From positions 10,708 through 51,445 of the forward strand of contig JAHDFS010000006.1 in assembly GCA_020628035.1 (NCBI GenBank): a stretch of 40,738 nucleotides of DNA, given 5' to 3'. The translations under genes were made by a program, and so were the position numbers. Origin of the DNA: Rhizobiaceae bacterium. Its GTDB lineage: Bacteria > Pseudomonadota > Alphaproteobacteria > Rhizobiales > Rhizobiaceae. The notes beneath the pieces are model-generated. The model was not told the DNA's origin. It saw nothing but the letters and a program-made list of their open reading frames with translations, and did no database searches. Of the stretch, positions 25,772 to 39,858 are shown one piece after another (position 1 is the first letter of the stretch; each line of letters opens with the position of its first letter).

Positions 25772-26893
25772 TTACAACTTGCCAGTTGGTTCGTCATCTT
25801 GGAGAAATTTTGGACCAACGATGCGGACTTTTCGATCGGCTTCTTCCAATGGTTTTCCGGTTCTGCTCACGCTGGTAATTGCCTGAACATCTTCATCCGT
25901 CAACTTGCCAGCAAGATTAGAAATTGTTTCAGGATCCTCACCGCGATCAATTCGGTCAACGGGAACAATTGTCAGCCCAGCTGTGGACGCGTTTTCTACA
26001 TCACCGTTTTCTTCACGTTCCTTTAAGATGCGTTCACGGCGAGCCATTTCGGCATGAAAAGCAGACATATTGCATGAACATGCTTCGGATTTGGGTCCTG
26101 AACGGGTTTTATAAGAAAATGCGTAAGGTTGGCTCGTATATGCCTGACCACCCCGATAGGAGATCATATCTTCACTTTCTTGATCACGTGAGCGGTGAAA
26201 GAACAAATTTGTTTCTGTTCCCGGGCACATCAATTGGCAAGCCAGTTCATCACGTTCAAATGATGAGGATGATGTGTTTGATGAGATGGGAAAGAAAAAC
26301 CCGTCGCAAGAACGCACGCACATCGTGCGGTATTGTCCGATATTGCGCGCTGAATTTGGTAGGGTCACAACTCTTTGCCGGGGTTTACGACCACCGCTCT
26401 TGCCTAAAATGCGCACCCCATTACCCAATGATTGACCTTGGTTTGAAGGTGTCGTCGGGGTTTGTGTTGCTGATGCACTGATCACAGAATTATCACCGCA
26501 ATTAAAAGCTTCCAAACGGGCATTGATTTGTTCAACAGAAAGTTTTGATGGCACCGTTTTCAGATTTTTTCGTGCATTTGTTAGCTTGTCGAGATTAACC
26601 TGCATTTTGTCTTTAACATCGACCAATTTTTCACAAGCCTGATCAGCATTATCTGAATTACACTTATATCGACGTAGATCGCCCTCTAGTTTTGCCAACA
26701 TTTTTGTTTGCTGCTTTATAGCTTGCGAATAACGTTTGATTTTTTTTGCGCTAGATCGAGATGCGGATGCCGATTGAAGTTCGGCATGTAAGCTGTCGCA
26801 TGATTCAAGATTTTGCGCAAAACCATCAACTGGTATTGCGAAAAACCCGGTCGCCAAAAGGGCTGCTGTCAGCTTTCTCATGGTTTTACTCAT
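25772..26893 (-). CDS. DUF2865 domain-containing exported protein
   Basis: Signal peptide; YRTMCVRSCDGFFFPISSNTSSSSFERDELACQLMCPGTETNLFFHRS...SEACSCN is the DUF2865 core common in Rhizobiales. Confidence 0.85.
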   Translation of the reverse strand: MSKTMRKLTAALLATGFFAIPVDGFAQNLESCDSLHAELQSASASRSSAKKIKRYSQAIKQQTKMLAKLEGDLRRYKCNSDNADQACEKLVDVKDKMQVNLDKLTNARKNLKTVPSKLSVEQINARLEAFNCGDNSVISASATQTPTTPSNQGQSLGNGVRILGKSGGRKPRQRVVTLPNSARNIGQYRTMCVRSCDGFFFPISSNTSSSSFERDELACQLMCPGTETNLFFHRSRDQESEDMISYRGGQAYTSQPYAFSYKTRSGPKSEACSCNMSAFHAEMARRERILKEREENGDVENASTAGLTIVPVDRIDRGEDPETISNLAGKLTDEDVQAITSVSRTGKPLEEADRKVRIVGPKFLQDDEPTGKL

Positions 26894-29439: not shown

Positions 29440-30639
29440 GTGACAATCAGTTTCATAATGGTTAAAACAGGTTCCATGAATAAGAATGCCAGTCAAAATA
29501 GTACGCGTCTTGCGCGATTTGAAGTGCTCGACGATGGCGATGATGGCATCGTTAAATTGATTGGCGAGTGGCGTCATGATGCGATTGAGCATGTGGCTGT
29601 CGAATTCCCGAAAATCCCTGATCAATCGCGCAAGAAGCAACTGATTATCGACATGTCAGGTGTTACGAATTTCGATACGGCAGGTGCATGGTTGGTTCAT
29701 CAATTCACCAATGCGTGCGAAGCAAATGGCACTACTTTTAAGATTAATGACGCCGGTGAAAATATTTTGTCGCTCTTATCAAAGATCCCGGCGAAATTGC
29801 ATGATCCGAATGAAGATGAAAATGAGCAAAAACCCAGTATTTTTCATCGCATTGTGGAACGCAGCCTTAGAGGCTGTCGCGCAATCTATTCAGACATCAT
29901 CATGGGCCTCAATATTTTGGGTGCGACAATCCAAGGTGGGCAATTAAAAGAGGGGCGCAGAACCGGCGCATCACCTGCAGCAATTGTCACGCAAATGGAC
30001 CACATTGGGGTGCGTGCTGTTCCGATTGTAGTTTTAATGTCTTTGGCGATTGGCGCGATTATCACGCAGCAGGCAGCCTTTCAATTGCGCGCTTTTGGCG
30101 CGGAGGTATTTGCAGCCGACTTGGTCAGTGTGTTGCAACTGCGCGAAGTGGGTGTGTTGATCACTTCCATTATGATTGCTGGTCGGTCTGGCAGCGCGAT
30201 TACCGCCGAAATTGGCTCTATGAAAATGCGAGAAGAAGTGGATGCGCTTCAAGTCATGGGTTTAAACCCCGTAGGCGTTTTGGTCTTTCCAAGGCTAATC
30301 GCGCTTATCTTGGTGCTGCCATTATTGACAATAGTTGCCAATTTTGCGGCTCTTTTTGCATCTGCAATGGTGCTTTATTTTTACTCTGAAGTGCCATTTA
30401 ACGTGTTTTTATCCAGAATGAAGGCGTTTATTGACTATACGACACTCACCTCGGGCATGATTAAAACACCTTTCATGGCTATCATCATTGGTATCATTGC
30501 AGCCGTTGAAGGTTTGAAGGTCGGAGGAAGTGCTGAATCCCTTGGTCGTCGCGTAACGGCATCTGTGGTGAAGGCGATATTCCTGGTTATTGTTATCGAT
30601 GGAATATTTGCCATTTTCTATGCTGCGATTGATTTCTAG
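29440..30639 (+). CDS. MlaE/YrbE-type ABC transporter permease with N-terminal STAS domain
   Basis: N-terminal STAS-like LIIDMSGVTNFDTAGAWLVHQF. MlaE part: RSGSAITAEIGSMKMREEVDALQVMGLNPVGVLVFPRLIAL. Start uncertain (29440 GTG, 29458 ATG or 29476 ATG). Confidence 0.93.
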   Translation: MTISFIMVKTGSMNKNASQNSTRLARFEVLDDGDDGIVKLIGEWRHDAIEHVAVEFPKIPDQSRKKQLIIDMSGVTNFDTAGAWLVHQFTNACEANGTTFKINDAGENILSLLSKIPAKLHDPNEDENEQKPSIFHRIVERSLRGCRAIYSDIIMGLNILGATIQGGQLKEGRRTGASPAAIVTQMDHIGVRAVPIVVLMSLAIGAIITQQAAFQLRAFGAEVFAADLVSVLQLREVGVLITSIMIAGRSGSAITAEIGSMKMREEVDALQVMGLNPVGVLVFPRLIALILVLPLLTIVANFAALFASAMVLYFYSEVPFNVFLSRMKAFIDYTTLTSGMIKTPFMAIIIGIIAAVEGLKVGGSAESLGRRVTASVVKAIFLVIVIDGIFAIFYAAIDF

Positions 30640-30650
30640 ATGGTGATGAC

Positions 30651-31466
30651 ATGAGTGATCTTTTGCATACAGAACAGCCGGTAGCGATGAATGATAAAGA
30701 CAAAATCATCCTGTCTGCGCGTGGGATATCTGTTGCATTTGGTGAGCATCAGGTTCTCAAGGATTTAGATCTGGATGTGCATCGTGGTGAGATTTTGGGA
30801 TTTGTTGGCGCATCCGGCACAGGAAAATCTGTATTGATGCGGACTATGTTGCGTTTGATTAAACGTCAGGCGGGACAGGTTCATATTCTCGGCAAGGATT
30901 ACGACAATATTTCAGATGAAGAGCGTATCGCAATTGATATGCGTCTTGGCGTGTTGTTCCAGCAAGGTGCATTATTTTCGTCACTTACGGTTATGGAGAA
31001 TATCCAAGTTCCGATGCGCGAATATTTAAGTATTCCGCAAAATTTGATGGATGATCTCGCTCGCCTGAAAATTGAGTTGGTTGGCTTGGCACCCAATGCT
31101 GCGGATAAATATCCATCCGAGCTTTCAGGTGGCATGATCAAACGCGCAGCATTGGCGCGTGCGCTGGCACTTGATCCAGATCTTTTGTTTTTGGATGAGC
31201 CAACATCCGGCCTTGATCCCATTGGCGCTGCCGAATTTGATGATCTCATTGCAAAGTTACGCGACACACTTGGTTTAACTGTTTATATGGTGACACACGA
31301 TTTAGATAGTCTGTTTTCAGTCTGCGATCGTATAGCTGTATTAGGTCAGAAACGCGTTTTGGTTGCTGGCGACATTGATACTATGCTTGCATTTGAAGAT
31401 GACTGGGTGCAATCCTATTTTAGAGGTCGGCGTGCGCGGTCTATTGTGCGCCTGGAAGGATCGTAA
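30651..31466 (+). CDS. MlaF-type ABC transporter ATP-binding protein
   Basis: Walker A GASGTGKS, signature LSGGMIKRAALARALALDPDLLFLDEPTSGLDP. Confidence 0.95.
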   Translation: MSDLLHTEQPVAMNDKDKIILSARGISVAFGEHQVLKDLDLDVHRGEILGFVGASGTGKSVLMRTMLRLIKRQAGQVHILGKDYDNISDEERIAIDMRLGVLFQQGALFSSLTVMENIQVPMREYLSIPQNLMDDLARLKIELVGLAPNAADKYPSELSGGMIKRAALARALALDPDLLFLDEPTSGLDPIGAAEFDDLIAKLRDTLGLTVYMVTHDLDSLFSVCDRIAVLGQKRVLVAGDIDTMLAFEDDWVQSYFRGRRARSIVRLEGS

Positions 31467-31469
31467 AGA

Positions 31470-33164
31470 ATGGAAACTAAGGCAAATTATACCATTGTAG
31501 GGTTATTCGCGGTTTTCGTGACGGTCGCAGCGTTTGGATTTATTTATTGGTATGCTGAGCTTTGGCAGACGGGAAAGTTTGCTCGAATTGTGGTTCAGAT
31601 CCCTGGTTCTGCCGCTGGATTAAATGTTGGTGCTCCGGTCCGTTTTAACGGTATACCTGTGGGGCAAGTTACAGGGGTAAATATCGATCTTAGCCAACCC
31701 AAATTTGTCAACGCACGCGCGGAAATTTCCGTTGATACGCCTATTAATCAGTCCACAATTATCAAGCTTGAAGCACAGGGATTAACCGGAGCTTCGATCC
31801 TTGAAATTTCTACCCCTGAAGGTGCTGGCACAGATATCTTGCAAAAAGCCTTTGACGAGGGGACCAGTATTCAGTTTGAAGCTTCTCCTTCTGGGATCGC
31901 GAATTTGTTGGAAACCGCTGAGAATATTATGGAGCGGACCGATGCCATTGTTGAGCAGGTTGAGAATTTTGTCACCACGGCGCAAGATCCAATCAATGCA
32001 ACGCTCAAAAATGCTGAAACTTTTTCCAAAGCGCTTACGGACAACGCCGATGGTATTGATGAGTTCTTAAAAAGCGTTTCCAGTTTGACTGGAACCATTC
32101 AAACTTTGTCTGTTCGTATTGATGGTACATTGGCATCTGCTGATCGTTTGATTACGTCCATTGATCCGCAAAAGATCGATAACACACTCGCTAATTTTGA
32201 AAAACTAAGCGGTGAAGCCACAACATCCTTGGCAAAAATTGACAAGCTGATATCGGAAGTTGAACCCGGCCAGATCGGTGAAACGGTGAAAAATATCACA
32301 GCGGCCAGCAATGATGCGCGTGAAGCAATAGAGCAGGCTAAACAAGCCATTTCGGGTATTGGCGCTAGCTCTGATGATATTTCTAAGATGATCGCCGATG
32401 TTTCAGAAACAGCGCAAAAATTAAATGCGGCCAGCGGAAAGGTTGATGCATTGCTTGCTGAAGTGAAACCGGGTCAGATTGGCAAAACACTTGAGGATAT
32501 CTCAACAGCCAGCGCTGATGCCCGTGTTGCCCTATCAGAAGCCAAGAAAGTGGTTGAAACGGTTGGCGGACGTTCGTCTGACATTGATGAGATGATCTCG
32601 ACAGTTGGTGAAACGGCTAAAAAACTGAATAGCGCGACAGAAAAGGTCGATACATTATTGGCGGAAGTTAATCCGGCAATTGTTCGTCAAGCGCTGTCAG
32701 ATATTTCATCAGCGGGTACCGATGCAAGAGAAACACTTTCAGAAGCGAAAAAAGTTGTCGCAAGTGTGGGTGGTCGGTCAGACGATATTGATCAGATGAT
32801 TACGGATGTGAGCGAAATTGCAATGCGTTTGAACGCAGCATCCACCCGTGTTGATGGTGTGCTTGCAAAGCTAGATGGCTTTTTGGGTGATGGAGATTCT
32901 TCGAGCCTCATGAGCGAAGCGCAGGAGACATTAAAAGCGTTTAAGGATGTTGCTGCTAACTTGAACCGACGAATTGGACCAATCGCAAGTAATTTAGAAA
33001 GATTTACGGGCGCAGGCCTTCAAGATGTTGAAGCTTTGGTTGTTGAAACACGTCGCTCGATTTCTCGGATTGAGCGTAGCATTTCTGAAATTGAGAAGAA
33101 CCCGCAAAGGCTTCTCTTTGGCGGCGAAACAGTGAAACAGTTTGACGGTCGAACCAGACGTTAA
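31470..33164 (+). CDS. MlaD family (MCE domain) protein with long repetitive helical C-terminus
   Basis: N-terminal TM, then MCE domain VQIPGSAAGLNVGAPVRFNGIPVGQVTGVNIDLS...ITGASILEIST-like region. C-terminal three tandem 68-aa repeats. Confidence 0.93.
   Translation: METKANYTIVGLFAVFVTVAAFGFIYWYAELWQTGKFARIVVQIPGSAAGLNVGAPVRFNGIPVGQVTGVNIDLSQPKFVNARAEISVDTPINQSTIIKLEAQGLTGASILEISTPEGAGTDILQKAFDEGTSIQFEASPSGIANLLETAENIMERTDAIVEQVENFVTTAQDPINATLKNAETFSKALTDNADGIDEFLKSVSSLTGTIQTLSVRIDGTLASADRLITSIDPQKIDNTLANFEKLSGEATTSLAKIDKLISEVEPGQIGETVKNITAASNDAREAIEQAKQAISGIGASSDDISKMIADVSETAQKLNAASGKVDALLAEVKPGQIGKTLEDISTASADARVALSEAKKVVETVGGRSSDIDEMISTVGETAKKLNSATEKVDTLLAEVNPAIVRQALSDISSAGTDARETLSEAKKVVASVGGRSDDIDQMITDVSEIAMRLNAASTRVDGVLAKLDGFLGDGDSSSLMSEAQETLKAFKDVAANLNRRIGPIASNLERFTGAGLQDVEALVVETRRSISRIERSISEIEKNPQRLLFGGETVKQFDGRTRR
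32238..32849 (+). repeat. Three tandem 204-bp (68-aa) coding repeats inside the MCE gene
   Basis: Units begin IDKLISEVEPGQIGETVKNI, VDALLAEVKPGQIGKTLEDI and VDTLLAEVNPAIVRQALSDI, at 32238, 32442 and 32646. Each is exactly 68 residues by manual count. Confidence 0.9.
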
Positions 33165-33240
33165 GGCTTTATAAATATCTCACTTTGGTTTATGAATGGG
33201 TCGATTTTAATGATTGATGTGAAACTGTTGGAGAATTCTC

Positions 33241-33837
33241 GTGCTGCGTAGTCTCTTGGCTTTGTCGACTTGCTTGGTGCTAAGTGGCTGTGTTCTCGGC
33301 GGTGGTAATGCATCTATCCCTGACACCTTCACCCTTTCCCAACAAGATATCGAGATCGCAGAGAAAAAGCGTAACTCTCGCCGGCAGATATTAATCGCTG
33401 AACCTGTGGCCTTAAAAACGCTTGATAGTGATAAAGTTGTGGTGCGTACGTCACCGTCTGCAGTCCAGTATTTGGCCGATGCACAGTGGAATGACAGATT
33501 GCCTCGCGTTGTCCAATCTAAACTTGCTCAAGCTTTTGAAAATTCAGGTCTTGTAGGCGGTGTTGGATTACCGGGCGAGGGATTAGCGATTGACTATCAA
33601 ATTGTTACATCCATCCGTGCCTTTGAAATCAATGTATCCTCTCCAAGATCTGCGGATGTGGCAATATCGGTAAAAGTGCTCAATGATCGAAATGGTGTCG
33701 TAAGAGCTCAACGTATATTTAGCTCGTCTGTGACCGCAGCTGGCACCGGTAATGATGATTATATTTCTGCTTTGGATTTGGCATCAACGATTGTCACGCG
33801 TGACATTGTATCATGGGCGGCGAAATATGTAAGATGA
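33241..33837 (+). CDS. ABC-type transport auxiliary lipoprotein family protein (PqiC/YmbA-like)
   Basis: Signal with lipobox LVLSGCVLGG. TFTLSQQDIEIAEKKRNSRRQILIAEPVALKTLDSDKVVVR...WNDRLPRVVQSKLAQAFENSG is typical. GTG start. Confidence 0.85.
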   Translation: MLRSLLALSTCLVLSGCVLGGGNASIPDTFTLSQQDIEIAEKKRNSRRQILIAEPVALKTLDSDKVVVRTSPSAVQYLADAQWNDRLPRVVQSKLAQAFENSGLVGGVGLPGEGLAIDYQIVTSIRAFEINVSSPRSADVAISVKVLNDRNGVVRAQRIFSSSVTAAGTGNDDYISALDLASTIVTRDIVSWAAKYVR

Positions 33838-33914: not shown

Positions 33915-36900
33915 TTATTTTAAACGCCCACTGGCATGGGCCAGCATGGTGTAAACTTTGCCTGTATCTGATGTCAGATAACTTTGACCAATCACATTGC
34001 TTGGGTCATTGCGTGAGACATCTGATAGTAGTTTTTCAAAGTCAGTCATATAGCGATCAACTGCCTTGCGGAATTCTGGCTCGCGCGCATATTTTGACTG
34101 GATGTCATCAAATGTCTTTTGACCTTTGATTGTATACAGGCGACGCGTAAAGATATCTCGCTCTCCGCGCTGGTATCTCTGCCATAGTTCGACAGATGCG
34201 TCATGATCAATGGCACGGGCGATATCAACAGACAGCGAGTTGAGCGATTCAACCACATGCTGCGGTTTGCGCGGCTGACGTGTTGGTTGCGCCGGAGCCG
34301 GTGCAGGAGCTTCTTGTGTGTCTGCACCTTTGATCAAGTTGCTCACCCATCGTGCATTATCATTGTTGTCTACAATCGCATCATGGGTTGGACGCAATTC
34401 CTGGGTAGCAATTTCAGGCGTCGTTGCGACACGTTCACGAGCTGATGAACGGTTTGATGCAGGTGAGGGGTTTGCATCCAGTGTCTGAGTTGATTTTGAC
34501 ACAAGTGATGACAATTCCTGAAGTGCTTCAATTTGCTGAGCAACAGCGCGGCGCATTGCGGCTGCGCTTTCGCGCGTTTCTTCTGGCAAGTCAAACGCAC
34601 CTTTTTTGAGCTCATCGCGTGTCTCGTTCAACTCCTTGCGAATGCTGCCAGCGGTGACGCGAATTTCCTCGGTTGCGCCTGAGAAGCGGCTTACCGCTTC
34701 ATCAACAGCTTCGCGGAGTGTGTTGCGAAGAACTTGTGCTGCATTGACCGAGCGTTGTTCAGTGTCTTTGATGAGGCTATCCACATCGCTGACAGAAGAT
34801 TTAAGCTCACGATCAATCGTGCCTGCTGCATTTGATGTCAGCGTTGCCGCTTGTGTAAATGCACCATCGACAATATCAATCAGTGAACGCATGTTGCGCT
34901 CGACTTCTTCAGAACGTGCAACCAGGCTTGAAGACAGACGATCAAGCGCGTCCTTGCGCTCATCCATGGTTGAAGACAGCCTGTTTTGTGCTTCACCCAA
35001 AAGGTCTGTTGCAGATGAAAGAACATTTGAATGTTGTTCAAAATGCTCGCTGATGCTGGCAATCTGGTTGAGTGTTGTGTTTGAAATTCCACCAAGTTGG
35101 CCAATGTTTTTGGCTAGGATATCCGCAGAATTAGACACAAGGCTTGAAGCTTTTTCGGTCGAATCAGACAAGTTATCCGCGGTCTCATTCAGACGTGTAT
35201 TGATAAGCGAGATATTCGCAGACGCCTGATGGATGGAGTCGTTAATGGTTGTGCTGCTTTCATTCATCTTCTCTAGGATGATTGCTGTATTTTGTGAGAG
35301 GCTAGCACTTGCATCGCGAACAGCTGTTAGTGTTTCGCTGCTACGTGTTGCAATGGCATCGATCAACGCTTGGTTCTCTGCTTTCAATTGCTCAGCACCA
35401 GCTCGCGCTGTTTCGCGCAGCGCCTGCGTTGCATTTGTTGTTGTCTCGGCAATCTCGTTAACAAGCGGGCTGAGCTTCTCACCCATAAAGCTTGCAAGCT
35501 CCTGAGTATTTTCTGAAAGCTTCGCGTTCAACTGGTTGGTGACCGTTGAAATCTCTTGCATTTTTGCAGCTTCTGATGTCAGAGCGCTGACATTTTCGGT
35601 CATAGCCTGCGTATGTGCACCAAGTTTTTCTGACAATTCATTTGAACGGATGCTCAAAGCTTCATCAAGATGCGTTGCCGCAGTGTTGACGCTTTCCGTC
35701 AAACGTTTGGTATGCGCACCCAATTTGTCATCGATAGACTGATTAAGCTCTTCGCTGGTTTTGCTGATGCTGTCACCAAATTCACTTGTTACGGCGCGCA
35801 ATGCTTCTTGTGCACGTGCAGCTTCTTGACCGAGATCAGTTGTTGCAGAAGACACACTTGATTTTAGTGTGCTTGCGAGCGAAATCGCTTGCTCACCCAA
35901 TGTGGTTGAGACGCGATCAAGACCATCAGATAGTGTTGAGTTTAAAATGCCAAAGCGTTTTTCAACATGGTCGGTTTTCTGCTCAACAGCGTTATCAATG
36001 GATGTAATCGCATCGAGTGTTTGCTCTGTCATGGACGCAGCATGTTGCTCGACTTTCTGCAGTGAATTCTCAACAGCAGATGAAATCGTGTTGATGGAAC
36101 CACTTGCAATAGAGGAGATCGCATTTGCTTTCTCTTCCAAGGAATTGGCTTTTTCTGTGAGCAAGTTACCAAGCTTTTCTTCATTGCTCATCAAGGCAAC
36201 AGAGATTTTGCTGGATTCGCGATCAAGCGCGCCGGAGAGGGCGTCTGTCATTGTATCCATGGCTTTGGTAATTAAGTTTGCGCCTTCACCAGAAATGGTT
36301 TCCATTGCATTTGTGCGATCAGTGAGGGTTTGCTCAAGGCGATCGATGTTACGTTTTGCGATGGAATCAAGTTCGTTGGCGCGCTCATGAAGCGCGTTAT
36401 CAAGCTTGGTCATATTCTCAGTCGCAATATTTTGCATGGTTTCAGCGCGTAGCTGAATGGACATATCAAGCGATTGAATGCCTTCACTGGTAATAGTTTC
36501 CAGGGAATCCGCTGTGCGTTTAACCGAACCTTCAATGGCCTCAATCGTCATCTTGCTGAGATTATCCATTTTCTCAGTGCGATCTTGAAGTGATGCATCA
36601 AGCGCATTGATTGAAGACTGGGCTGTATTGGCAAAGTTGCTGGTCTTCTCGTCCAGTGTTGCACCAAGCTTGTCGACAGATTCCTGCGTGATATTTGCAA
36701 TGCTATTCGTGCGCTGATCAAAACTGTTTTCAAGCTGCTTGATACTGTCTTGCGCAACAGCATTGATGGCATCTGTCCGTGATTTCATCGAAACATTGAT
36801 GTCTTCAACCGCTTTGCTCATGCTCTGATCAAGTGCAGATTGTGACGTTGTAAGTGTTTCACTAAGATCCACCAGGTTGCGCGTTAGATCGGCAGTGATG

Positions 36901-38690
36901 CCCTTTGTATGGCCTTCAATTGTTGCAGAGCCATCAGAAAGCGTCTTGTTGAGGTTTTCAACGCCTGTTGTGATTGCCATATCGATAGCCATGTTGTTGG
37001 CCATAAAGCTTTCATCGATCTTGTTAACAGCACTATCAGCTGCATTTTTAAGTGTATCTGCGTGGCCGCTCAGCTTATCAACACCCGTTTCAATGATATT
37101 GGTGAGATTAAAATTGCTGGCGGTCAGCGTCTCATTGACCTCTGCGACACCATCTTTCACAGTTGCATTGAAGGCTGATGTGCGTTGATCAAGGGTCGCG
37201 GCAAGTTTCTCGATATTTTCAGCAAAGCTAGTATTAACTTCGCTACTAGCAGCAAGCATTTGTTCGCCAACCAAGCCTGAACGCAGATCAATATCCATAA
37301 CGGCTTCATCAGCACTGGTTTTAAGTTGTTGACGGAATGCTGCGCCTTTTTCATCCAATGTGGCATTCATTGAATTAATAACGTCACTCAAACCTTGTTC
37401 TATAGCGCGTTGTCCAATTGAAAGCGAATCATTGATCTCTGAGCTGCGGGCTGACAGCGCTTCATTTAACTGTCGTGTGCGCTCGTTGATTGTCTCATTT
37501 AGACGTTCAGCAGTTGAATCAAGTGTGTTAACCCGTGTTTCAAAATCAGATAGTAACTCTTTGCTTTGTAACACAAATTGAGAGCTGATCATATTCAGTC
37601 TGCTGTCGATTTCGCCGGTAATATCGTTACCTGAAGTACGCAGATTGTTTAAAAGATTCTCTGAGTTTTGGTCAAACAGGTTTTGGATGGAATGGGTGAT
37701 ATCCATTGTACGCTCCTGCAGTGTCGCAGAATGCGTATCCATTAATTGCGCTACTGTTTCGCCAGAAAGGGCGATGCGCATTGCAATTTCATCCCCAGCC
37801 TGGCCCAACTCATCTTTGAGTTCATCACGCGCGCCGACAATGGATGTGCGTAAACGTTCGGCATAAGAAATGATCGCGTCGCGCTCGTTACTAAGATCGG
37901 TCACAAGACCGCGCACACGCATTTCATTATCTGTATAACTGCGCTCAAGCGCGTTTACTTCAGAATGCACGAGTGTTTCGAGTTCAGATGCACGCGCAAT
38001 TGTGCGTTCAATGCCTTCGTTCATGGCATTGACTTCGCGACGGATGGCCTGACCAACTGTGGTGATCTTACCGGTTCCGCGTGTTTCTGGATCTGCCAAT
38101 TGGATGGCAACATGTGTCATTGCGCGCGCGGCAACTTTAAATTCGCGGGCTCTTGTGACCATGATGGCAAAGGCAAAGAAGATAAATGTCGGAATAATCG
38201 CAACGAGTACTGCACCAATTAAGAAAGGGTCATTGATAAAATCGTTGGCATTGGTAATGGCGGTGATATTTTCATTAAAAAGGTAATAAGCTGCTGCACC
38301 AACGCCTGCAATCCAGACAAGGGACAACAAAATAGCAAATGTATAGGCTGAACCTGACACGCGCTGATCGAGCGCAGCAAGGAGCGGTGACGATTTTAGT
38401 CCAGAATCATCATTTGCAGGATCAAAATCGATCTGCGTTGTAGGGGCGGGAACTCTTTTTGGTTCTGACGGCGCTACATCTGCTTTATCATTTGAGCCAG
38501 TAGAACTTGCATTGGATGCAGTTTTATCTGATGTGTCAGGCGCAGATGCTAATTCTCTCGCAGCGCTTGATACTTGTTGCTCTAGATCTTCAAATGACTT
38601 TTCATCAAGAGAGAAATCAGCCTCTTGAGCATTGCCGCCTTTGGCAGCGTTTGAATGATCTTTTTTCTGACCAGCGGGCTCTTTTGCCAT
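33915..38690 (-). CDS. giant (1591 aa) membrane-anchored coiled-coil protein, candidate GPR/RgsE/TipN-type polar growth organiser
   Basis: Acidic N-terminus, TM hairpin YTFAILLSLVWIAGVGAAAYYLF...FLIGAVLVAIIPTFIFFAFAIMV followed by TRAREFKVAARAMTHVAIQLADPE. About 1200 aa of helical heptad/22-mer repeats. Conserved-looking C-terminus VESLNSLSVDIARAIDHDASVELWQRYQRGERDIFTRRLYTIKGQKTFDDIQSKY...YLTSDTGKVYTMLAHASGRLK. Confidence 0.75.
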   Translation of the reverse strand: MAKEPAGQKKDHSNAAKGGNAQEADFSLDEKSFEDLEQQVSSAARELASAPDTSDKTASNASSTGSNDKADVAPSEPKRVPAPTTQIDFDPANDDSGLKSSPLLAALDQRVSGSAYTFAILLSLVWIAGVGAAAYYLFNENITAITNANDFINDPFLIGAVLVAIIPTFIFFAFAIMVTRAREFKVAARAMTHVAIQLADPETRGTGKITTVGQAIRREVNAMNEGIERTIARASELETLVHSEVNALERSYTDNEMRVRGLVTDLSNERDAIISYAERLRTSIVGARDELKDELGQAGDEIAMRIALSGETVAQLMDTHSATLQERTMDITHSIQNLFDQNSENLLNNLRTSGNDITGEIDSRLNMISSQFVLQSKELLSDFETRVNTLDSTAERLNETINERTRQLNEALSARSSEINDSLSIGQRAIEQGLSDVINSMNATLDEKGAAFRQQLKTSADEAVMDIDLRSGLVGEQMLAASSEVNTSFAENIEKLAATLDQRTSAFNATVKDGVAEVNETLTASNFNLTNIIETGVDKLSGHADTLKNAADSAVNKIDESFMANNMAIDMAITTGVENLNKTLSDGSATIEGHTKGITADLTRNLVDLSETLTTSQSALDQSMSKAVEDINVSMKSRTDAINAVAQDSIKQLENSFDQRTNSIANITQESVDKLGATLDEKTSNFANTAQSSINALDASLQDRTEKMDNLSKMTIEAIEGSVKRTADSLETITSEGIQSLDMSIQLRAETMQNIATENMTKLDNALHERANELDSIAKRNIDRLEQTLTDRTNAMETISGEGANLITKAMDTMTDALSGALDRESSKISVALMSNEEKLGNLLTEKANSLEEKANAISSIASGSINTISSAVENSLQKVEQHAASMTEQTLDAITSIDNAVEQKTDHVEKRFGILNSTLSDGLDRVSTTLGEQAISLASTLKSSVSSATTDLGQEAARAQEALRAVTSEFGDSISKTSEELNQSIDDKLGAHTKRLTESVNTAATHLDEALSIRSNELSEKLGAHTQAMTENVSALTSEAAKMQEISTVTNQLNAKLSENTQELASFMGEKLSPLVNEIAETTTNATQALRETARAGAEQLKAENQALIDAIATRSSETLTAVRDASASLSQNTAIILEKMNESSTTINDSIHQASANISLINTRLNETADNLSDSTEKASSLVSNSADILAKNIGQLGGISNTTLNQIASISEHFEQHSNVLSSATDLLGEAQNRLSSTMDERKDALDRLSSSLVARSEEVERNMRSLIDIVDGAFTQAATLTSNAAGTIDRELKSSVSDVDSLIKDTEQRSVNAAQVLRNTLREAVDEAVSRFSGATEEIRVTAGSIRKELNETRDELKKGAFDLPEETRESAAAMRRAVAQQIEALQELSSLVSKSTQTLDANPSPASNRSSARERVATTPEIATQELRPTHDAIVDNNDNARWVSNLIKGADTQEAPAPAPAQPTRQPRKPQHVVESLNSLSVDIARAIDHDASVELWQRYQRGERDIFTRRLYTIKGQKTFDDIQSKYAREPEFRKAVDRYMTDFEKLLSDVSRNDPSNVIGQSYLTSDTGKVYTMLAHASGRLK
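36288..36815 (-). repeat. Eight in-register 66-bp (22-aa) coding repeats inside the giant coiled-coil gene
   Basis: KAVEDINVSMKSRTDAINAVAQ / DSIKQLENSFDQRTNSIANITQ / ESVDKLGATLDEKTSNFANTAQ / SSINALDASLQDRTEKMDNLSK / MTIEAIEGSVKRTADSLETITS / EGIQSLDMSIQLRAETMQNIAT / ENMTKLDNALHERANELDSIAK / RNIDRLEQTLTDRTNAMETISG; all 22 residues. Confidence 0.9.
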
Positions 38691-38978
38691 ACCGCTACTT
38701 CCTCATTTTGTTTGTACGCGTTTTGCAGCCATGACCCACGAGTAAACTACGAATGACCCTCGAAAGATCCGTTGGGCCGTTCAATTGAAACCTGCGCGTT
38801 TGTCCCCGCTTAAACTCGCCATAGCCTCATGCAAAACATATCAATGTTGTGTTTTGCCACATTTCTGTAGGTTTAACAATGAGATGAAGGCATTCGTACA
38901 CAGGCAGAAGTGCCACAATTCAACTTGGGAAAAATACGCCCATCATTAAGTCCCTGCAAAATATAGGTTTATGGTCTG

Positions 38979-39081: not shown

Positions 39082-39450
39082 ATGGCTTTAAATCAAATTA
39101 TACTGGAGGCCCCAGAATTTGGGTCTGGTCGCGCCAGTGACGATCGTCCGATCGATATGCTACACCTTTCCAAACAGACTTCAGGGGATTCAGACCTTGA
39201 AAATGAACTTTTGACTTTGTTTGCAAAGCAAGTTCGTGAATGTTTGGCTGAAATGGCGTCTTGCGAAGAAGATGCGCGCGCAAAAATAGCTGAAGATGTG
39301 CACAATGCTGCGGACAGCATCGGCGCATTTGACGTTGCGGACCGGGCTGCTCGCGTGAAAGCAAATCCAGCTGATGCAGCTTCACTTGCAGCATTTTCAA
39401 ATTCGGTGGTCAAAGCCAGCAGTTTTATTGCGTCGCTAAACCGCATGTAA
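39082..39450 (+). CDS. Hpt-like (histidine phosphotransfer domain) small protein, possibly degenerate
   Basis: 122 aa; RPIDMLHLSKQTSGDSDLENELLTLFAKQ...AEDVHNAADSIGAFDVADRAARVKANP has the Hpt-like helical pattern, but the AHxLKG motif is not intact. Confidence 0.65.
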   Translation: MALNQIILEAPEFGSGRASDDRPIDMLHLSKQTSGDSDLENELLTLFAKQVRECLAEMASCEEDARAKIAEDVHNAADSIGAFDVADRAARVKANPADAASLAAFSNSVVKASSFIASLNRM

Positions 39451-39537: not shown

Positions 39538-39858
39538 ATGGCCAAGATTACATATATCTCTTCAGATGGAAAAGAATTCGTTGTTGATGCAAAAAATGGA
39601 TCAACAGTGATGGAAAATGCAGTCAAAAACTCTGTGCCTGGCATTGAGGCAGAGTGTGGCGGTGCTTGCGCATGTGCAACGTGTCACGTTTATGTTGACG
39701 ATGCTTGGAGCAAAAAAGTGGGTTCGCCAGAAGCCATGGAAGAAGATATGCTCGACTTTGCCTTTGAAATGAAGGAAACCTCGCGCTTGTCTTGTCAGGT
39801 TACTGTGTCAGATGAACTTGATGGATTAATTGTACATATCCCATCCCAACAAGCTTAA
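39538..39858 (+). CDS. 2Fe-2S ferredoxin, adrenodoxin type
   Basis: [19 protein letters not shown]...[23 protein letters not shown], with the C-x5-C-x2-C...C cluster pattern. Confidence 0.95.

Follow-up and report, generated by a model that had tools for sequence, protein, structure and literature searches.

A likely polar growth scaffold of the GPR/RgsE class with a hendecad rod that varies in length by unit steps

Proteins of the GPR/RgsE class form a growth-pole ring of six foci, and both polar growth and rod shape depend on them. Polar growers of this kind lack MreB (PMC8546619), and GPR is a leading scaffold candidate for shaping one growing tip without it. The localisation and depletion of GPR/RgsE have been studied in A. 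tumefaciens and S. meliloti, and its localisation in B. abortus (PMC8262873, PMC7327166, PMC9938171). A 40,738-nucleotide stretch of a Rhizobiaceae genome (contig JAHDFS010000006.1), referred to here as the window, includes an open reading frame for a large membrane-anchored helical protein, which an earlier note had taken for a short ortholog of this class. The locus raises the question of whether the protein is indeed GPR/RgsE and, if so, of how the length of such a scaffold can vary. The gene and the parts of its product are located in the window as follows.

33915..38690, minus strand: gpr/rgsE ortholog, 1591 aa, complete, with an ATG start and no internal stop
38698..38704, minus strand: Shine-Dalgarno-like GAGGAAG, just 5′ of the gpr ATG
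38361..38690, minus strand: N-terminus, residues 1-110, disordered, acidic and Ala/Ser-rich
38277..38360, minus strand: TM segment 1, residues 111-138, from hydropathy
38145..38240, minus strand: TM segment 2, residues 151-182, from hydropathy
37131..38063, minus strand: start of the rod, ~310 residues (about 210-520), almost without indels in a comparison of 104 orthologs
35541..37130, minus strand: stretch of the hendecad rod in which length varies, about residues 521-1050 (approximate limits)
36285..36746, minus strand: the clearest run of in-register 22-residue repeats, seven copies, residues 649-802
34521..35540, minus strand: C-terminal part of the rod, about residues 1051-1390, ending in a conserved anchor
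34257..34520, minus strand: Pro/Ala-rich linker, residues 1391-1478, in which small indels are common among relatives
33918..34256, minus strand: conserved C-terminal helical module, residues 1479-1591, also present across Alphaproteobacteria

The start codon is supported by an N-terminal S(L/I)DEK(S/A)F motif that the window protein has in common with S. meliloti RgsE. A single proline (1075) is found between Pro201 and Pro1369, that is, in about 1170 helical residues, and the rod is rich in Ser, Ala, Leu, Thr, Glu and Asn, with 104 Lys/Arg against 182 Asp/Glu and a net charge of -78. Spectral analysis of its hydrophobic pattern showed a sharp peak at 3.65 residues (power 67), close to the 11/3 of a hendecad, and the autocorrelation of residue identity along the rod peaked at 22 and 11 residues. 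The 22-residue repeats have no counterpart at the DNA level, as neither a TRF array nor a direct repeat was detected in the window gene. Pfam PF01442 (apolipoprotein), a published hallmark of GPR (PMC8262873), matched the protein in 9 stretches, its 139 bits well exceeding the cut-off of 90. The spectral peak, the PF01442 score and the near-universal presence of the protein in the family, with a match in 247 of 249 sampled genomes, indicated that this architecture is not a product of chance. The earlier note had been accurate in its account of the reading frame, the 1591 residues, the acidic Ala/Ser-rich N-terminus, the two closely spaced TM segments and the long, almost unbroken helix. The C-terminal module, described there as compact and Trp/Tyr-rich, is compact and has six Tyr, but "Trp-rich" was a slight overstatement, with one Trp inside the module and another just before it.

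BLASTP aligned the window protein with S. meliloti RgsE from end to end, the first segment having E=2e-141. RgsE was located in CP090106.1 (LZK74_25975), where the coding sequence specifies exactly 2089 aa, the published length (PMC7327166); the gene is annotated as "kinesin" (L042:18339-24608), and the record, of chromosome size, is filed as plasmid pSymB. The resemblance of both terminal modules to GPR/RgsE, on which the proposal of orthology depended, was borne out by ~51% identity over the TM/N-terminal part (window residues 86-300) and 82% over the C-terminal module (last ~120 aa), and PF01442 matched both proteins. Overall identity was only about 41%, and the rod is of low complexity. 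The closest named records were Rhizobiaceae metagenome-assembled genomes, at 86-94% identity. The source genome, a draft of 3.35 Mb (218 contigs, estimated completeness 88%), contained no second gpr copy and no better-matching ortholog, the query recovering only itself. The same 88% complete genome yielded one match to the MreB profile, and this candidate was assigned to FtsA, since FtsZ comes next to it; MreB is likely to be absent from the host. The genes around gpr provided a further comparison.

39082..39450, plus strand: Hpt-related protein, 122 aa, divergent from gpr, ortholog of S. meliloti Hpt (41% identity)
39538..39858, plus strand: 2Fe-2S ferredoxin, syntenic with S. meliloti
29440..33837, plus strand: Mla-type lipid transport operon (permease, ATPase, MCE protein and auxiliary lipoprotein), convergent with gpr
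25772-26893, minus strand: DUF2865 protein, possibly RgsH (SMc00153), 24-33% identical to a protein encoded 26-28 kb away from rgsE in Sinorhizobium

The Hpt, ferredoxin, Mla and DUF2865 neighbours are common to the window and S. meliloti, so the comparison of synteny agreed with the earlier proposal. The DUF2865 gene is found 7 kb beyond the Mla operon in the window, and in S. meliloti Mla and DUF2865 are 15-28 kb from rgsE. The RgsE match, the shared gene order and the lack of a second copy together identify the window protein as a GPR/RgsE ortholog. Another coiled-coil protein of the ZorA or SMC type was considered, given a weak match to the NCBIfam ZorA model (36.7 bits), and its probability is practically nil: the score falls far short of the 190-bit cut-off, there is no ZorB-like gene among the annotated adjacent genes, and the strong full-length match to RgsE together with the synteny with rgsE refuted assignment to ZorA of Zorya systems. 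By orthology with the studied GPR/RgsE proteins, the window protein would be of a known kind, a membrane-anchored rod organising growth at a single tip of the cell.

The gene adjoining gpr showed variation of its own. A divergently transcribed Hpt-like gene was present next to gpr in 96 of 104 loci, and among these the phospho-accepting His was kept in 89 and replaced in 7. In the window protein the position is occupied by Glu and the match to the Hpt profile is lost. The His was replaced in all three examined members of the window's genus; the Hpt-like proteins encoded next to gpr in the congeneric L002 and L045 are without it, and in L002 the gene also appears frame-broken. The median rod length was 1121 where the His was lost versus 1528 (p=0.002), but a tie between this loss and a short rod is not claimed, as there were only about three independent losses. 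No paper linking an Hpt protein to GPR was found in a limited search of the open-access literature.

The PF01442 match and the apolipoprotein-like periodicity of 11/22 residues, together with the Mla lipid-transport operon adjoining gpr in the window, bear on what the rod does. They could mean that it is an apolipoprotein-like lipid-binding helix engaged in polar lipid sorting, and not a scaffold for protein-protein contacts, and a lipid-related role was proposed by Zupan et al. (PMC8262873). However, the rod is strongly negative with few Lys/Arg, it is nearly continuous and almost devoid of the prolines that break apolipoprotein helices, and in S. meliloti the Mla operon is about 15 kb from rgsE instead of adjacent. 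A lipid-binding rod was considered unlikely on this balance.

The claim of the earlier note that scaffold length varies in the family was confirmed on a set of 104 intact orthologs having both anchors. They ranged from 1344 to 3387 aa (median 2043), with the window protein among the short ones, and almost all of the variation came from the middle of the rod. Nearly all indels were located between the first ~310 rod residues and the ~340 residues before the rod end, and 73 of the 104 have the same distance between the N-terminal anchor and the DEKG motif. Measured between the anchors, the rod has about 1121 residues in the window protein and 2797 at its longest. If each rod were one straight helix between the anchors, its length would be about 129-420 nm across the orthologs. 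In the longest ortholog (L086, 3387 aa), the rod region includes nine tandem copies of a 198-nt unit (6 x 33 nt), and on this example the longest rods may be recent expansions. In another genome (L056) gpr was split into two long frames of 1201 and 1171 aa, through either a broken gene or an assembly error.

The sizes of single indels were analysed in 29 independent (disjoint) close ortholog pairs. Exact multiples of 11 aa accounted for 38 of the 53 rod indels (p=4e-28 against 1/11), and 50 of the 53 fell in the classes 11n or 11n+7, whereas outside the rod, in the N-terminus and linker, these pairs had 137 indels, of which 1 was a multiple of 11. Indels of 1-6 aa numbered 0 over the 45,995 rod residues compared and 106 over 13,963 residues of the two control regions, linker and N-terminus, at nearly equal mean identity (0.89 for the rod and 0.88 for the control). 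Alignments of close pairs showed indels at multiples of 11, namely 11, 22, 33, 44, 66, 88, 99, 110, 132, 154, 198 and 396 aa, and also at 18, 29, 40, 51, 58, 87, 106 and 116 aa, sizes that correspond to 7+11n or to multiples of 29. The angular phase coherence of the rod indels was 0.93. An alignment-free check on total rod length differences gave 13 multiples of 11 among 23 nonzero values (p=1e-8). The outcome was broadly stable under three gap-penalty settings and weakest at -10/-1, where multiples of 11 made up no more than 35/62 and the rod showed four indels of 1-4 aa. No earlier report of a stepwise rule for rod length was found in the open-access literature.

Many of the genomes are drafts, and short-read assembly does collapse repeats, by which the length differences could have arisen as an artefact. 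This origin is very improbable, since 33-nt steps are shorter than the reads and the same steps were seen between genomes in few contigs, namely L103/L118 (22, 22) and L047/L058 (11, 11, 22, 44, 22, 116), as well as between the circular S. meliloti record and L060 (66, 106). TRF detected tandem arrays in 85 of the 104 genes; of the 263 arrays, 146 had a period that is a multiple of 33 nt and 42 a multiple of 87 nt, and duplication or loss of repeat units is therefore the likely mutational route. Tandem duplication alone would favour multiples of 33 nt, so the step sizes by themselves are no proof of selection, and the stepwise lengths might be a mutational by-product of slippage and recombination in 33-nt and 87-nt repeats, with the register under no selection at all. 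We judged this quite unlikely. Slippage adds unit-sized events, yet it does not remove small ones, and the depletion of 1-6 aa indels in the rod relative to the linker and N-terminus is not explained by it; moreover, the window gene, in spite of having no DNA-level repeat, still differs in its rod from a relative of the same genus by 11, 44 and 99 aa. For these reasons we infer that purifying selection on the helix register accounts for the missing small indels.

The stepwise signal was clear only in close pairs, in which single indels are readable. A single modulus for all rod lengths was rejected, as distant orthologs were not locked modulo 11 and showed only a modest peak at 3.662. The missing lock is presumably the consequence of accumulated 7- and 29-residue steps. 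The results point to a rod with a strictly kept register and a free total length, and they offer a concrete structural rule in which the hendecad register is preserved while length is free to change in unit steps. Taken together, it is highly probable that the window encodes the single GPR/RgsE ortholog of its host, a TM-anchored hendecad rod that keeps its register, changes length by unit steps and organises polar growth.

The C-terminal module has a wider distribution than the full-length protein family examined above. It was detected in 106 of 289 genomes sampled from Alphaproteobacteria, a class in which proteins of 650-2740 aa combine it with N-terminal TM segments. Among 20 examples, most had N-terminal TM segments, and the periodicity of the rods was 3.56 to 3.66. 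AlphaFold2 modelling with four usable sequences predicted a helical bundle (mean pLDDT 72), and comparison with solved structures, by fold and by sequence, gave no significant match. A plasmid of Sphingomonas parapaucimobilis encodes a 774-aa protein (L044:4018-6342) that combines the GPR C-terminal module with hydrophobic segments near its N-terminus, and the divergent gene adjoining it has a weak Hpt match.

A working model can be proposed for the scaffold. The two N-terminal TM helices would hold the protein in the inner membrane, with its bulk on the cytoplasmic side, as deduced from published RgsE PhoA fusions (PMC7327166). The near-unbroken helix of ~1170 residues, with its 11-residue repeat, would form a cytoplasmic rod, and beyond it a flexible Pro/Ala linker would lead to the conserved helical C-terminal module, which probably docks partners. 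By orthology, the protein would gather, presumably as an oligomer, at the new pole and organise unipolar wall and membrane growth there. With an uninterrupted hendecad face, rods could pack laterally against one another or bind partners, and steps of 11 or 7+11n residues would be accepted because the amphipathic face stays continuous, even as rod length changes more than threefold between species. By arithmetic, 20 residues rotate the helix face by ~164 degrees and 21 residues by ~-98 degrees, while 11 keep it aligned. The small coiled-coil deletions that Zupan et al. made in GPR span 21-22 residues by their printed ranges, while the text calls them 20 aa and the abstract 21 (PMC8262873). These deletions may have been in register or out of it, and loss of register may contribute to their published dominant effects.

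The earlier note had suggested that scaffold length could be related to ring size or cell width, which is still speculation. A doubtful extension of it is that GPR acts as an evolvable ruler, altered in quanta of 11 residues, in which selection forbids out-of-register changes and tolerates unit-sized ones, and the length of the rod sets how wide the ring or the cell is in different species, or how far the C-terminal docking module reaches, possibly with input from Hpt. Natural variants of 1344 to 3387 aa make the question of length versus ring size or cell width testable by rod swaps.

Several known systems resemble the window protein to different degrees. The apolipoproteins A-I, A-IV and E (PF01442) have amphipathic helical repeats of 11/22 residues, as the window rod does. 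Unlike it, they are small, secreted, proline-punctuated lipid carriers, and the likeness may be convergent. Caulobacter TipN has been described as analogous or similar to GPR (PMC13170164, PMC8546619) and is set beside it by that description; it has 882 aa and its host has MreB. GPR of A. tumefaciens (Atu1348) has two N-terminal TM domains, about 1700 aa of continuous helix matching PF01442, a proline-rich region and an essential C-terminus (PMC8262873). Compared through the literature and RgsE only, it is longer than the window protein (2115 versus 1591 aa), and RgsE was published as 42% identical to it. S. meliloti RgsE (SMc00190), like the window protein, has two N-terminal TM segments, a PF01442 rod, a Pro-rich linker and the C-terminal module, and its gene has the divergent Hpt and ferredoxin genes beside it and the Mla operon nearby. 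The two differ in that the Hpt protein next to rgsE keeps its histidine, whereas that of the window does not, and in that RgsE, with 2089 aa against 1591, has a rod 454 residues longer between the anchors.
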